Source: a virus
Reading direction: 5' to 3' (one strand)
Length of the DNA: 23,123 nucleotides
Virus record (IMG/VR): IMGVR_UViG_3300011116_000929
Coordinates: 1-23,123 of that record
Shown: piece by piece, positions 4,131 to 23,123 of the stretch
How the letters are laid out: each line of letters opens with the position of its first letter
Position numbering within the stretch: the stretch's first letter is position 1
The notes under the pieces: model-generated
Told to the model about the DNA's origin: nothing
The model's input: only the letters and a program-made list of their open reading frames with translations
Database searches by the model: none
Program-made: the position numbers and the translations under genes

Positions 4131-5864
4131 TTAGAATTGACCTCCATCTATAGTGTCAGTCCAAACAGGAACATTTGAAGCATTTGTAGTCAAAATATAA
4201 TTTGAAGTACTTGCATAACCAACTTCTGGAGATGTAGTACTTGTAAGTTTTCCATTTGAATCAAAATATGCAGATCCTCTGGTACTAATGCCAGAAGATG
4301 TAAAATTAAGATATAAAGCTCCAATATCAAGAGTACCCTTAGTTCCTGATACTACACTATTTGTAAATGTAGCATCAGGAATAAAAGTAAGGTAACCAGT
4401 AGAATCTTTGTAACCAAAGAAACCTTTTTTATAATTTGCAATACCAGAACTTGTATTGTATTCAAAAGAAATACCACGGTCAGTATTTGTGTCATAATAA
4501 TGTTGTACTGTTAACTGCGTAGTCGTTGCAATTCCAGAAGTTGTGGTTCCAGAAATTGTAATAACTTTAGAGGTAGAATTATATGCCGTAACAGTTCTAT
4601 CGGCAGTCGTTACTGGAAGTCCATTTGGACCAGAAATAATATCGCCAGTATTGATACCAACAACCGAATCTAATGTAATTGTACTCACACCAGAAGCAAC
4701 AGTTCCCATAATGGTCCTGATGCTTGTAATATCCCCAAGATTGAATATTACTTCATTTGCACTTACAGTGCTTGAATTTACTGTAGTTGTAGTTCCATCT
4801 ACTTGTAAATCACCTTTAACAACAACAGTACCCTGATTGCTTAATCCATCTGGGTATGGGTCAATATAAAGAGTATTTCCTCCACCGGATTTAGTAGAAA
4901 TTACATTCGAACTAATTCCAATATTATCAATTATTGCTCCACCGATATTGGTAAATACACCAGAGTGTGTAATCGATCCAGTAAATGTACTAACTCCGGT
5001 TACAGTAAGTATATCACTACCAGAGTCGCCTAAATTTGTATTTCCTTGTACTATTAGATTACCAGTAAGAGTCTGATTTGCTGTTACGTTTAAACTACCA
5101 CCAATATAAACATTACTTGCAATTCCAACTCCTCCAGATACAACTAAAGCACCAGTTGTAGTTGAACTTGAGGTTGTAGTTCCATTAATTTTTACATCAC
5201 TTGCAAAAGTACCAAATCCTGCCTTAGATACGACAAATTTTGATACTCCACCTACTTGAAGATCAACTAATTTTGAAGAACTGGCAGATTGAGTATCTGT
5301 TATGTTTACTCTCAGACCAGTAAAATCTATTCCAGAGTTATTCCAAGTACTTGTGGCATTTAAAACTGGATAATCTAAAGATAAAGTACCTTGGGTTACT
5401 GATGTAGAACCATTTGTACTATCAACTACAAATCTATTTGTAGATCCGTCAGTAATATTAAAATTCTGTGAAGTACCACCAGTGAATATTAAATCTCCTG
5501 TACCATTTGGATCAATATAAATATCACCATTTGAATTTGTAGATGAAACTGTATTTCCATCAATTGTAATATTATCTACATTCCATTGATCAACTTTACG
5601 ATTTTGATCTAGAACAGGAACAAAACCATTTGCTGGAGTTGTTGGGTTTGCTTGCCCAGAGACTAAACCAGGAGCAATACTTAGAAGATCTGTATAATAT
5701 CTACCACCAACTATTTGTGGATTTGAAGAATTGTCACCAGCAAATAATCTTCCTCCAAAGTTTCCATTGGTTCCTACACCAACTGTAAGACCAAGTTCTC
5801 CAAAATTTAAACTACCTGGAGATACAGTTCCTGTGGATCTTTTGACTCTGATTATGCTTGCCAT
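4131..5864 (-). CDS. Fibre-like virion structural protein (wac position)
   Basis: A 577-aa protein rich in Gly, Ser, Thr, Val and Asn, with the look of a trimeric beta-structured phage fibre. The N terminus MASIIRVKRSTGTVSPGSLN, followed by FGELGLTVG, is the usual attachment segment of this marine-phage family. Short beta repeats follow, such as DGNTVSSTNSNGDIYIDPNG (about 100-120) and LTGNLIVQGNTNLGDSGSD. A third example is VVVKGDLQVDGTTTTVNSST, a pattern also seen in other phage fibres. A distal segment (RGISFEYNTSSGIANYKKGF, then FGYKDSTGYLTFIPDAT) resembles repeats in related fibre proteins. The C terminus is DGGQF. The start overlaps the stop of the 74-aa gene (TAATG) with GGAGGT 8 bp upstream. 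It occupies the place of T4 wac between the baseplate genes and gp13, so it may be a neck whisker or side fibre. The structural role is confident; the location in the virion is not. Confidence 0.8.
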   Translation of the reverse strand: MASIIRVKRSTGTVSPGSLNFGELGLTVGVGTNGNFGGRLFAGDNSSNPQIVGGRYYTDLLSIAPGLVSGQANPTTPANGFVPVLDQNRKVDQWNVDNITIDGNTVSSTNSNGDIYIDPNGTGDLIFTGGTSQNFNITDGSTNRFVVDSTNGSTSVTQGTLSLDYPVLNATSTWNNSGIDFTGLRVNITDTQSASSSKLVDLQVGGVSKFVVSKAGFGTFASDVKINGTTTSSSTTTGALVVSGGVGIASNVYIGGSLNVTANQTLTGNLIVQGNTNLGDSGSDILTVTGVSTFTGSITHSGVFTNIGGAIIDNIGISSNVISTKSGGGNTLYIDPYPDGLSNQGTVVVKGDLQVDGTTTTVNSSTVSANEVIFNLGDITSIRTIMGTVASGVSTITLDSVVGINTGDIISGPNGLPVTTADRTVTAYNSTSKVITISGTTTSGIATTTQLTVQHYYDTNTDRGISFEYNTSSGIANYKKGFFGYKDSTGYLTFIPDATFTNSVVSGTKGTLDIGALYLNFTSSGISTRGSAYFDSNGKLTSTTSPEVGYASTSNYILTTNASNVPVWTDTIDGGQF

Positions 5865-18500: not shown

Positions 18501-20258
18501 AGTTGTAATTGCAACATTTACAATTTTTCCTGCATTTGGGGCACCAGTTAAAAATTTAATTGTATTTGCATTTGGAGTATCAATTGTATAATCAACTTCT
18601 GGAGTTTGGAAAATATTATTAATTAAAATGAATGGTTTGTTGTCTATATTTGTGCTACTATTTGTATTTGTAAAGATTCCAACAACTGGTTGATTATTTG
18701 AAGACAATACAAATTCTGTAGCTGCAATACCGGTAAATTGATTTGATATATCATCTAAAATGATATTTTTATCAGTTGGATTATATGCATCCAATTGTCT
18801 AGAAAATACTCTTCCAGAAAAAGACGAATTTGCAATTAACTGTGGATCAGTTGATGCAATAGAAGGACCATAAGGAGGTGTTGAAAAATATATTACATCA
18901 TTAACAATATTAAAATCTCCTTTCATTATCGATGTAGCTGAACCAACAGTATGTGCAGTAGCAACTGATCCCATAAATGCTCTGGTTACACTTAATGCAT
19001 TAGTAGAACCAACGCCAACAGAGTTAACTTTTAAATATTCATTATCAATTTGAAGAATATCATTATTGAAAATAGAACTAATTCCAGAAGAGATGAATAT
19101 AGAGGTAGATCCAATTCCAATTGAAGTAGAAAGTCCAATTGTAATATTTTTTCTATGTATAGGACTTTGAATAATATTATCAATTGAAATTATTACATTT
19201 TCATTTGGATTTTTAAAACTAAATGATTGTGATCCAGAACCAAATGAATCCAAATTAAATGGATTATTTAAAGTTGTAGAAAAACCAGAAACTTGAAAAT
19301 TATTTGCATCTATCTTACGAACAAATATATTTGATGGAAGTTTATTTGTTCCTAATAATGTAGGAGAAAGATAGATATTATCTGCAGGAGTTGATCCTCC
19401 AACATTAGAACCAGAAATTATAATTTGATCTGTTGATGTATATCCTGTTCCTCCATTTACAATTCTTACTTCAGAAATATCTTTATTTGCGTCTCTTGTT
19501 ACATTAAATATTGCACCAGTTCCAATTCCACTAGAAGTAGACGCAATACTTACATATGTTGTATTTGCAGTTCCAGCTCTGGTTGTAGAAACTCTTGATA
19601 TTGTAAAATATAAATTATTTGTGGGAGTTGCCCCACCCATATAAGTTCCAGCAATTGAAATTTGTTGCCCAACGGAATAACCACGTCCTCCATCAATTAA
19701 CTGAACTGATGTTCCAATTGGAACACCTGTTCCTGAATTATAAGTAATTAAAACTTGAAATAATGCTCCAGTACCAATGCCGGTATTTACATTTCCTGGA
19801 ATTGGATTTCCAAATCCAAAATATTGCGAGAAAACTCCAGGAGAAGTCGTGCTACTAATACCGGTAACAATGCCAGAATATGGAACATAATTATTATATC
19901 CATTTTCGTATATTGCGCTTCCAATTCCAGCACCAACTCTCATTAATATATCAAGAGTTCCCGTTGCATAAGATGTTGTTGCAATGCCGATTCTTGTCTC
20001 AGTTTCTTGATTTAACGGATAATAACCAAATCCTGGAGATAAAACTACAATTCTGGAAATTGCACCACCAGAAATTACTGGATAAAAAATTCCCTCTGTG
20101 ATTGGTGTGACTGTATTTTTTATTGTTATTTTTGGTGGATCAGTCGAAGCATATCCGGATCCACCATTTACTACGTCTATAGAGGTTACTGAATAGTTTA
20201 CAGTTTCTATATTTGGACTTAATATTGCACCAGATCCCGGAACTACTCTTGTTGACAT
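15507..20258 (-). CDS. Large baseplate structural protein in gp7 position with beta-propeller-like domain
   Basis: A 1583-aa protein immediately upstream of gp8, where T4 has gp7 (1032 aa). It has about ten GGxGYxxxPxVxI-type repeats (near residues 32, 76, 190, 269, 587, 617, 656, 715, 1014 and 1366). Three modules of the form (I/L)N(N/D)I(F/L)QxPxxxYT occur (near 359, 546 and 812), and an ID-NEYLKV...VTRAFMGS module lies at 380-445. Residues 880-970 (KQRPLKWIKQKQDRIINGSL, then RPTTKLI) are a conserved cyanophage block. Residues 1035-1350 look like a beta-propeller: WISVGYNGAIF, LIIVGDDGTSSTSTDGTFW, FVVVGDGNNILTSSIGNVW. The C terminus ends APEVTRTRGLFKGK. T4 gp7 also contains a propeller, so a gp7 analogue is a reasonable inference, but I see no direct sequence match to gp7. 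The ATG at 20258 has TTTAGG upstream. Confidence 0.78.
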   Translation of the reverse strand: MSTRVVPGSGAILSPNIETVNYSVTSIDVVNGGSGYASTDPPKITIKNTVTPITEGIFYPVISGGAISRIVVLSPGFGYYPLNQETETRIGIATTSYATGTLDILMRVGAGIGSAIYENGYNNYVPYSGIVTGISSTTSPGVFSQYFGFGNPIPGNVNTGIGTGALFQVLITYNSGTGVPIGTSVQLIDGGRGYSVGQQISIAGTYMGGATPTNNLYFTISRVSTTRAGTANTTYVSIASTSSGIGTGAIFNVTRDANKDISEVRIVNGGTGYTSTDQIIISGSNVGGSTPADNIYLSPTLLGTNKLPSNIFVRKIDANNFQVSGFSTTLNNPFNLDSFGSGSQSFSFKNPNENVIISIDNIIQSPIHRKNITIGLSTSIGIGSTSIFISSGISSIFNNDILQIDNEYLKVNSVGVGSTNALSVTRAFMGSVATAHTVGSATSIMKGDFNIVNDVIYFSTPPYGPSIASTDPQLIANSSFSGRVFSRQLDAYNPTDKNIILDDISNQFTGIAATEFVLSSNNQPVVGIFTNTNSSTNIDNKPFILINNIFQTPEVDYTIDTPNANTIKFLTGAPNAGKIVNVAITTGFGYQPLIGAAATVSVSAGGTISSIKLNGAGSGYRSSPVVSIASTVGSGASISAIVGAGGTITSLSIINGGIGYTNTALPSVSISLPLPYSNLGIAYTNGSTGNGINAKVSVQVGSGSSIIQFIIDDPGIGYKIGDVLSVVGLTTNPNIGTSFSKFSITVTETLTDKFSGFFVGQFISFDDISIYFNGTRTKFTLTQSISGVTEIIDLKKNPGSDIELENNLFIYLNDILQIPNESYTLTGSRIVFTEPPKSGSKCSILFFKGSSRDVEIITPVKTIKEGDGVQIGENIYDNLDIEQFERIVKKIVSSDQLDTYNYDSIGINTDTNKQRPLKWIKQKQDRIINGSLVSKARPSLISTIRPTTKLIKNVNIEDTSIYVNNAFPLFTIVDSLPEEDSNILIIENRDTNPAIATAIVSVANTISSIAISTGGIGYAYTSSPRVAISSVSVHLKDPILNWSASSGISTNTSLLSVTYGSPIVSIGQSGVVAITTDAKNYNLISNVGFSKTVTFNSISFASTNTYIAVGDYGKIVTTVGFGTTISSWIELKKYEETSLFGVVTRSQSSYISSLTSVDYFSDINKWISVGYNGAIFSAVGVGSTAFTKIPSNTSSNFRSIAYGASKLIIVGDDGTSSTSTDGTFWNTNTIASSKLNKIIWDGSRFVVVGDGNNILTSSIGNVWAQIIPNITGNFVNIDYNNTYSMYTLLDSTGNLYYSFNLQYWTYRSTNQLNIIKDILYISNNDGYVLVGTGATSIYSISTYNLATAVSSTTSGIITSISIQNPGFGYNKNNPPKVLIEPDTSLIEQIFSIKAKGDFGTIVGVDTSLGFGTTLPQLIFRLKTESYDNTTLGIGYSALDSYGITYSGISTGDYFVIYDSNVQCGHALTGITTTNNSISSVGTANTFIDGVYRAENIQVSGVGIVTVFCKFLPGPGYVDKIIVNANPSNKSNGFYGRYSWSKIYDYQNRGIGSPNNFTINTNNGLVGLSSAPEVTRTRGLFKGK

Positions 20259-20435: not shown

Positions 20436-23123
20436 TTAATTTCCAGAAAGATGAGATAAAATAACTGAGAATCTGTGATAACCAGTTGGTATGTTTCCAC
20501 CACCAATCATAGTTATTATAATTCTAGCATTTGTAGAAGTAGTATTAGTATCACTTAATCGGCATATAACACGACTGTCACTATTACACTGTATAATTCC
20601 AAATAATGGTGCTACTCGGAATACGCCACTAGGAATTGGCATATCATAAGTTTGTTCTGTAGATCCATTAAGATTTAGTACAATAGATTCTAAAAATTGT
20701 TGTTTAAATATTTGTATATATTCTGAAGATTGTTTTAATATCAATCCCTGCCCACAATGCCAAATATGATTATCTCCTACTTTAAGATATTTGGCACCAC
20801 TCTTTATCCATATTCCGTATTGTTCAAATCCTTTTATATAATTAGCTGCAATTAAACTGGACCGCTCGTGTGGTGTATTCGTTAGGCTGTAACCATCAAT
20901 AACTATTCCGTAATTTGCACTGCCTACATTTATAATACTATTACCGGTAATGACATATTCGCCACTATTTCCTAGCAACTCTATACCAATAGTATCAGGA
21001 CCGCCATTAGCATATATTAAATTATTACTAATGTTAGATTGTACCATTCCTTTTAGATATACGCAACATACGTTACAATTTAAGTGAGAATTACTTAGAT
21101 TCATTCCAGACTCTGCTCCATCATCATTACAAAAAATACCATAGTTTGCTGCTACAAATCCACAATTTGCAACATATAAACCTTCAAAAAAATCATTTAT
21201 TTCTATTGATTTATTTCCATAAATAAAGTCTGTATTTGTAATTTGAATTGTCGAGAATGAATTAATATGAGCGCCACCATCATCTACATGTATTCCAGTT
21301 CCAGAATTTGTATTATCTAATCTAAAATTGCAATTTGAAATTTTTACATCACCTTGCCGTACTATGTGTAACCATTTTTTGAATCCACGCTCCATGTTTG
21401 CTTGTCCTTGAAATTCTACCTCACTTATTACAATGGTTCTTTGTGGACGACCTTCAAAACTATTTCCTATAATTTTAATGCCAGAAGAATTTTCGGAAGG
21501 GAATACTCTTGTTTCAAAGGTCAATCCTCTCATAGAAAATCCATTAGATCCTGTAGCACCAGAAAGCCACCATTCTCCTGGAAGATTAATTTCAATACCA
21601 TTACCGTTTACAATATTTAATCTTATTATGGATACCCCAACTCCATCTCCTAAAAACGATATACTTTTATCTCCACTCAAAGTAGTAGAAATAGTGCTAG
21701 TAATAAGATATATTCCTGCCGGAAAATGAACACATTTACCAGTACTAGTAGCGTAATTTACAGCAGATTGTATTGATGCTGTATCATCAGAAGATCCATT
21801 CCCAGCGGCACCAAAGTCCTTAACACTTACAATATCATTTAATTTTGATTGTATTGATCTTGGGGTAGCATTAGCTCCGTTTTGTGTATAATTACTAGAT
21901 AATGTAATATAAGAACTATTATCTATACTACCATCTGCTTTTAAAAATTGACTTGATGTTCCGCTAGTCTTAACAAAACTTGTAGCATTTATAGTACCAG
22001 AAGTAAGATTGGAAGGATTTAGATTAGTTAAGTTTGCGCCAGAAGCAGTAGGTAGTGTAGCAGGAAATCTACCATCTGGTATTGTTCCAGAAGTAAGATT
22101 AGTAGCATTTAAATTAGTTAAGTTTGCAGCATTTAGATTAGTTAAGTTTGCGCCCGAAACAGCAGGTAATGTAGCAGGAAATCTACCATCTGGTATTGTT
22201 CCAGAAGTAAGATTAGTAGCATTTAAATTAGTTAAGTTTGCGCCAGAAGCAGTAGGTAGTATAGCAGGAAGTCTACCATCTGGTATTGTTCCAGAAGTAA
22301 GATTAGTAGCATTTAAATTACTTAAGTTTGCGCCCGAAACAGCAGGTAATGTAGCAGGAAATCTACCATCTGGTATTGTTCCAGAAGTAAGATTAGTAGC
22401 ATTTAAATTAGTTAAGTTTGCGCCAGAAGCAGTAGGTAGTGTAGCAGGAAGTCTACCATCTGGTATTGTTCCAGAAGTAAGATTAGTAGCATTTAAATTA
22501 GTTAAACTTTCGCCATTACCGCTAAATTTTGTAGAAGTTAATGTACCAGTAGATGGTATAAATGATAATCTAGTTGAAGATACTGATAGAGATTGAACTG
22601 TTCCGGATGTATTAGAAACTGCTGTTAGATATGATGGAGAACTTGAAGAAGTATCATCATTAATTGTAATATTAGTATTTGCAGTCGAGTTTACCGTAAC
22701 CTGTCCTGTGGACCCAGATAGGGTAATATTAGTTCCAGCAACAATAGAAGTTACAATGCCCGTCAAGTTCGCACCATTACCACTAAAACTTGATGATGTT
22801 AAAATACCAGTGACTCTTGCATTACCTACTACAAAAAATGCAGATGTTGGATTAGTGGTTCCAATACCAATACTAGATGCTGTTAATACTCCAACAGTAG
22901 AAATACCAGAAACTGATAATGAAGTAACTGATGTAATACCACCTATAACACTTGTTGCTATACCTGCACTAGAAGCATAAGTTGCTATACCTGCATTAGA
23001 AGCATAAGTTGCTATACCTGCACTAGAAGCATAAGTTGCTATACCTGCACTAGAAGCATAAGTTGCTATACCTGCACTAGAAGCATAAGTTGCTATACCT
23101 GCACTAGAAGCATAAGTTGCTAT
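20436..23123 (-). CDS. Tail fibre/tailspike with pectate-lyase-like beta-helix (5' end missing)
   Basis: The frame is open from the window edge, so 895 residues are visible and the true start is upstream; a TTG at 22766 is internal. In order: residues 1-57, a tandem IATYASSAG repeat; 58-205, marine-phage fibre stalk (GIGTTNPTSAFFVVGNARVT, then GNGANLTGIVTSIVAGTNIT); 206-379, a 30-residue repeat containing NATNLTSGTIPDGR. Residues 431-800 are a right-handed beta-helix opened by SVKDFGAAGNGSSDDTASIQ, the hallmark of the pectate lyase 3 superfamily found in phage tailspikes. Coil turns include KISNCNFRLDN, IQITNTDFIYGN and YVITGNSIINVG. Residues 800-895 form a C-terminal beta domain ending SHLSGN. 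The likely role is host surface binding, possibly with polysaccharide cleavage. I cannot assign catalytic residues. It is followed by a 177-bp gap. Confidence 0.85.
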   Translation of the reverse strand: MATYASSAGIATYASSAGIATYASSAGIATYASSAGIATYASNAGIATYASSAGIATSVIGGITSVTSLSVSGISTVGVLTASSIGIGTTNPTSAFFVVGNARVTGILTSSSFSGNGANLTGIVTSIVAGTNITLSGSTGQVTVNSTANTNITINDDTSSSSPSYLTAVSNTSGTVQSLSVSSTRLSFIPSTGTLTSTKFSGNGESLTNLNATNLTSGTIPDGRLPATLPTASGANLTNLNATNLTSGTIPDGRFPATLPAVSGANLSNLNATNLTSGTIPDGRLPAILPTASGANLTNLNATNLTSGTIPDGRFPATLPAVSGANLTNLNAANLTNLNATNLTSGTIPDGRFPATLPTASGANLTNLNPSNLTSGTINATSFVKTSGTSSQFLKADGSIDNSSYITLSSNYTQNGANATPRSIQSKLNDIVSVKDFGAAGNGSSDDTASIQSAVNYATSTGKCVHFPAGIYLITSTISTTLSGDKSISFLGDGVGVSIIRLNIVNGNGIEINLPGEWWLSGATGSNGFSMRGLTFETRVFPSENSSGIKIIGNSFEGRPQRTIVISEVEFQGQANMERGFKKWLHIVRQGDVKISNCNFRLDNTNSGTGIHVDDGGAHINSFSTIQITNTDFIYGNKSIEINDFFEGLYVANCGFVAANYGIFCNDDGAESGMNLSNSHLNCNVCCVYLKGMVQSNISNNLIYANGGPDTIGIELLGNSGEYVITGNSIINVGSANYGIVIDGYSLTNTPHERSSLIAANYIKGFEQYGIWIKSGAKYLKVGDNHIWHCGQGLILKQSSEYIQIFKQQFLESIVLNLNGSTEQTYDMPIPSGVFRVAPLFGIIQCNSDSRVICRLSDTNTTSTNARIIITMIGGGNIPTGYHRFSVILSHLSGN
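21987..22508 (-). repeat. 90-bp tandem repeats in the tailspike stalk
   Basis: There are five full 90-bp units (22419-22508, 22329-22418, 22239-22328, 22149-22238, 22035-22124) and a partial sixth (21987-22034). A 24-bp insert (22125-22148) duplicates the NLTNLNA start of a unit. Each unit encodes 30 residues with the core LTSGTIPDGR. In transcription order the variable ends run RLPATLPTASGA, RFPATLPAVSGA, RLPAILPTASGA, RFPATLPAVSGA, RFPATLPTASGA: two alternating types followed by a hybrid. DNA identity between units is very high, so expansion by unequal recombination or slippage is recent. Confidence 0.93.
22954..23123 (-). repeat. 27-bp tandem repeats encoding IATYASSAG
   Basis: There are six full 27-bp copies (starting 22954, 22981, 23008, 23035, 23062 and 23089) plus 8 bp of a seventh that runs off the window. 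Five copies are identical; the copy at 22981-23007 has one base change (Ser to Asn, IATYASNAG). Because 27 is a multiple of three, copy-number change keeps the frame and alters only stalk length. There are no spacers, so this is not a CRISPR array. Confidence 0.95.

Follow-up and report, generated by a model that had tools for sequence, protein, structure and literature searches.

The open reading frame (ORF) at the end of the window probably encodes the receptor-binding fibre of a T4-like cyanophage, a putative trimer in which a repetitive stalk carries a tailspike tip acquired by exchange. The window, the whole stretch of DNA analysed here, is an entire IMG/VR record of 23,123 bases, and both the N-terminus of the fibre and the N-terminal part of gp7 (gp7-N) lie outside it. 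By analogy with cultured cyanophages, where a T4 gp9/gp10-like fibre connector holds this slot, the stalk would attach to the baseplate close to gp7, the tailspike module would have been gained at a common linker (PRSIQSKLNDIVSVKDFGA), and the tip would recognize, and possibly cut, a polysaccharide on the cyanobacterial surface. The features of the fibre and of the gene that follows it are listed below.

20436..23123, minus strand: fibre/tailspike ORF, 895 aa visible, N-terminus past the contig end
22954..23123, minus strand: 27-bp tandem repeat (9-aa IATYASSAG units), proximal stalk
22017..22505, minus strand: 90-bp tandem repeat (30-aa NLTNLNATNLTSGTIPDGRLPATLPTASGA units), distal stalk
21834..21887, minus strand: linker TQNGANATPRSIQSKLND, residues 413-430, likely exchange boundary; phrog_18522 spans the linker
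20694..21833, minus strand: predicted right-handed beta-helix domain, residues 431-810; PF12708 match at 431-620
20439..20693, minus strand: C-terminal ~85 aa, residues 811-895, low model confidence, shared with Pseudomonas phage MR4
15507..20258, minus strand: gp7-C, the C-terminal portion of the giant baseplate wedge protein gp7, next gene downstream of the fibre; phrog_2885, 8.5e-173
19998..20258, minus strand: ~87-aa leader of gp7-C, absent from the fused gp7 of relatives

The stalk and the beta-helix of this ORF are real and not a chance resemblance. The sequences GIGTTNPTSAFFVVGNARVT and IVSVKDFGAAGNG lie in a single reading frame, which is open at its 5′ end where the record ends. The stalk, residues 1 to about 412, begins with the 9-aa units (6.3 copies of the 27-bp repeat), continues with GIGTT-type sequence and ends with the 30-aa units (4.2 copies of the 90-bp repeat); repeats resembling the 9-aa units are also present in cyanophage fibre loci. 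The helix motif begins at I431, with SVKDFG at 433, and residues 431-620 match PF12708 (Pect-lyase_RHGA_epim) with E=1.3e-11 and 45.2 bits, against a curated cut-off of 27. Solved beta-helices are matched by the tip in phmmer with E down to 3.1e-8. The preliminary description had set the domain boundary at 431, which holds for the start of the helix motif, while the exchange boundary is better set at about residue 412-430.

The tip is predicted to fold as a right-handed parallel beta-helix. An AlphaFold2 model built on an alignment of 38 trimmed relatives, which replaced an untrimmed alignment of 30 sequences, has a pTM of 0.81 and a mean pLDDT of 76, with beta-strands up to residue ~810, a mostly confident helix and an unresolved stretch of about 80 residues at the end. 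The first iterated profile of the tip drifted and was rebuilt on the query columns; a single-sequence AlphaFold2 model of the tip is uninformative (pLDDT 39). Foldseek relates the model to solved beta-helices with a probability of 1.00, the neighbours being the alginate epimerases AlgE4 and AlgE6, the Sf6 tailspike (1.1e-6), the CBA120 tailspike TSP3 (1.1e-6) and the Pam1 tailspike (5.1e-5). Among the viral models of BFVD, Pseudomonas phage MR4 comes first (4.9e-12), and P-SSM2 and S-SRP01 are also listed. Since the TM-scores against these neighbours are about 0.4-0.6, the fold class is clear and no close structural twin is claimed. The family match and the predicted structure both bear out the earlier proposal that this T4-like fibre ends in a beta-helix tailspike tip. 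The models are of monomers, the state that could be predicted here, and the fibre itself would be a trimer, in which residues 811-895 are a possible trimerization or binding domain.

The virus is, as judged from its genes, a T4-like cyanophage of Kyanoviridae type. On the minus strand, the fibre ORF is followed by gp7 (1583 aa), gp8, a DUF4815 protein of 2494 aa, small proteins and fibre-like ones, and after these by the head-tail adaptor, neck protein, tail sheath stabilizer and small terminase. Homologues of gp8, gp7, neck protein and TerS are in cyanophage order, and neighbouring genes have PHROG matches. A second fibre-like protein of 577 aa is encoded at 4131-5864 (phrog_15769, 1.1e-104). 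The preliminary description called the virus marine from its sequence style only, and this is doubtful: gp8 is 70-72% identical to that of the cultured marine Synechococcus phages S-SSM7, Sf-FS3 and S-SCSM2R, but 90% identical to that of contig L037, whose sample, 3300005584, is a Great Lakes surface-water metagenome according to its publication (PMC6234284). Of the IMG sample numbers looked up in papers, this is the only one that led to a habitat. Most of the other close samples are presumably freshwater lakes, and the virus is probably a freshwater one.

Relatives differ in what stands in the slot before gp7-C: some carry another tip, one has a different beta-helix, and one lacks the fibre altogether. 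Locus L105 is 97% identical to the window from gp7 codon 88 on, and upstream of this point it has an uninterrupted, fused gp7 and no fibre. In locus L039, 14 kb beginning shortly ahead of the gp7-C start are 82% identical, and gp7-C is preceded by a different fibre, which ends in VYQCTIHSGMVGTFIIVQ and has no helix in its visible part. About 460 bases separate the two (L039:845-1300), where a small ORF is possible. In locus L130 the slot holds a pair of fibre genes, and the second of them (L130:7439-9937) contains a PF12708 helix (6.2e-14), lodged between two ends that alone form a helix-less protein of 118 aa in L117. Sibling loci of L130 have ORFs of 383-785 aa that share the start of this second fibre. 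Of the 14 loci fetched that share this gp7 split, some of them near-duplicates of one another, L130 alone has a helix. In cultured cyanophages the slot protein is annotated as a baseplate wedge tail fibre connector, and that of S-SSM7 matches PF07880 (T4_gp9_10_N) with 4.2e-11; by its slot, the fibre of the window may be the equivalent of such a T4 gp9/gp10-like connector, its own N-terminus being outside the record. The slot is a defined place for studying change of host recognition in T4-like cyanophages.

The sequence comparisons support assembly of the fibre by domain exchange, as had been proposed. Many phage proteins whose N-termini are unrelated contain the linker SKLNDIVSVKDFG, and in many such proteins a linker of the type at residues 413-430 comes before VSVKDFGA; in viral contigs, RSIQSKLNDIVSVKDFGA is one case of a recurring pattern, another being GAVQRTVESKLQDAVSVKDFGAVGNG, again with unrelated N-termini. 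The 30-aa stalk repeats also stand in 36 ORFs that lack a helix and end instead in collar-like, glycine-rich or other tips. Exchange is supported by the recurrence of the linker, the stalk repeats with other tips and the differences in the slot, and the protein is not conserved as a single unit in related phages. A recent import marked by a shift in composition was considered and rejected: the GC content of helix and stalk is like that of the rest of the window, and composition therefore gives no sign of recent foreign origin.

This agreement in composition would also suit a helix that is an old, vertically inherited part of the fibre family, as would the beta-helix proteins of the cyanophages P-SSM2 and S-SRP01. 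Vertical descent is nevertheless improbable, given that L130, the only one of the 14 fetched same-split loci with a helix, has it in another fibre context and that the best relative of the helix comes from a Pseudomonas autographivirus. A fusion made in assembly, by joining two repeat-sharing phage genomes in the metagenome, is very unlikely. Tandem repeats such as those of the stalk provoke misassembly, the near-identical L105 lacks the fibre gene at the slot, and the exact combination of stalk and helix is found in no second contig among the searched sequences; an exact-DNA search near the junction returned nine contigs and no second copy of the fusion, the similarity being confined to the cap and some stretches of the helix. 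Against an artefact, however, the frame is open throughout stalk, linker and helix, and the linker and the stretch preceding it are not tandem repeats. In L039, moreover, the same gp7-C leader independently comes after the end of a fibre, and the fibre of L130 is a beta-helix fibre in the same slot. Exchange at the linker is the reading followed here.

Gp7, encoded after the fibre, is in many relatives one fused protein of about 4070-4380 aa; in the other arrangement it is split, fibre genes lie between the two halves, and the downstream half opens with a conserved leader of about 80 aa. In many cyanophages this leader is the N-terminus of gp7, downstream of a fibre or connector gene. It occurs once in each of 297 cyanophage records, and a split unique to the window was accordingly rejected. 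Relative to fused gp7, the break is at residue ~2577-2582 in the group of the window and at ~2910-2917 in S-SSM7. In L229 (422-5640) it is the neck protein gp14 that is interrupted, near residue 330; three ORFs lie in the gap, two or more of them fibre-like, and the C-terminal part of gp14 begins with the same leader as gp7-C. Counting both gp7 breaks and the one in gp14, related phages have fibre genes plus leader at three separate break points in structural genes. The upstream parts of the split genes gain short new tails, which are loosely alike in the window-type split and L229 and different in S-SSM7; the upstream half belonging to the window would, from its relatives, be of this kind. 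A tentative and rather doubtful explanation is that the fibre genes travel as a cassette together with the leader, the first ~80 aa of gp7-C; this cassette would repeatedly insert into giant cyanophage structural genes and split them into two working proteins, giving the upstream part a new tail and the downstream part a new start. Phages could then acquire, drop and exchange receptor-binding tips, tailspikes among them, with the baseplate intact. Repeated recombination at shared repeats is a possible alternative to a mobile cassette; the fused gp7 may also be the derived state.

The protein most likely serves as a baseplate fibre and contacts a surface glycan with its tip. Cutting of this ligand would be a separate step. 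The alignment has no conserved acid on the helix outside the N-terminal cap region, and the DPH catalytic motif of the AlgE type is absent from residues 431-895. Both absences favour a non-enzymatic binding or spacer domain that has kept the fold and lost the activity, as does the case of Pam1, in which the helix and beta-sandwich of gp17 are described as recognizing host extracellular polysaccharide (PMC9382816). On the other hand, the Foldseek neighbours of the tip include active glycosidases, lyases and epimerases. Across tailspike families there is little conservation of catalytic residues, which can also sit at subunit interfaces, so the absence of conserved acids says little. Both absences are compatible with a tailspike-type active site and neither excludes one. 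A tip without cutting activity is a possibility just short of even, and it bears on the cutting step only; the reading as a fibre with a tailspike tip is the same in both cases. T4-like cyanophages, apparently from fresh water, can thus carry tailspike modules like those in phages of capsulated bacteria, and in at least part of their hosts the receptor is therefore likely to be a surface polysaccharide.

Beta-helix tips are already known elsewhere, and a rarity of such tips is not supported, since P-SSM2 (a marine T4-like phage), Pam1 and S-SRP01 have beta-helix proteins. The best whole-domain relative of the tip, by sequence and fold, is the tailspike-like "lyase" of Pseudomonas phage MR4, the sole phage record with a sequence match over 80% or more of the domain. 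The MR4 protein, gp54 (QJD54752, annotated "putative lyase superfamily protein"), aligns with the whole C-terminal 465 aa of the fibre at about 25% identity, the end domain included, but its N-terminus is short and has no stalk repeats, and the name "lyase" in its record comes without a tested activity. In phages, a tblastn search of the tip at 1e-5 gave no match, while a relaxed search gave MR4 at 8e-9; the two disagree at face value, and the relation to MR4 is separately confirmed by profile and fold. The tailspike of Shigella phage Sf6 (2vbe, 2vbk, 4urr) is a right-handed beta-helix that opens with the same cap motif, although its identity to the tip is 13-14%, its N-terminus is of the podovirus type and no residue-level correspondence to its active site was obtained. 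Pam1 tailspike gp17 (7eea), like the tip of the window, is a beta-helix receptor-binding domain, and from a freshwater cyanophage, but it also has 13-14% identity, and Pam1, a podovirus, is outside the T4-like cyanophage group. Connectors such as SSSM7_102 of S-SSM7 ("baseplate wedge tail fiber connector", T4 gp9/10-like) occupy the same slot, directly before gp7-C and its leader, whereas they are about 340-400 aa long and lack a beta-helix. PSSM2_026 (Q58MX8) of Prochlorococcus phage P-SSM2 differs in gene position, in length (548 aa) and in having a collagen-like repeat in place of the stalk, yet it shares the beta-helix/pectate-lyase-like character of the tip, and its gene, within the tail-fibre cluster, likewise belongs to a T4-like cyanophage.
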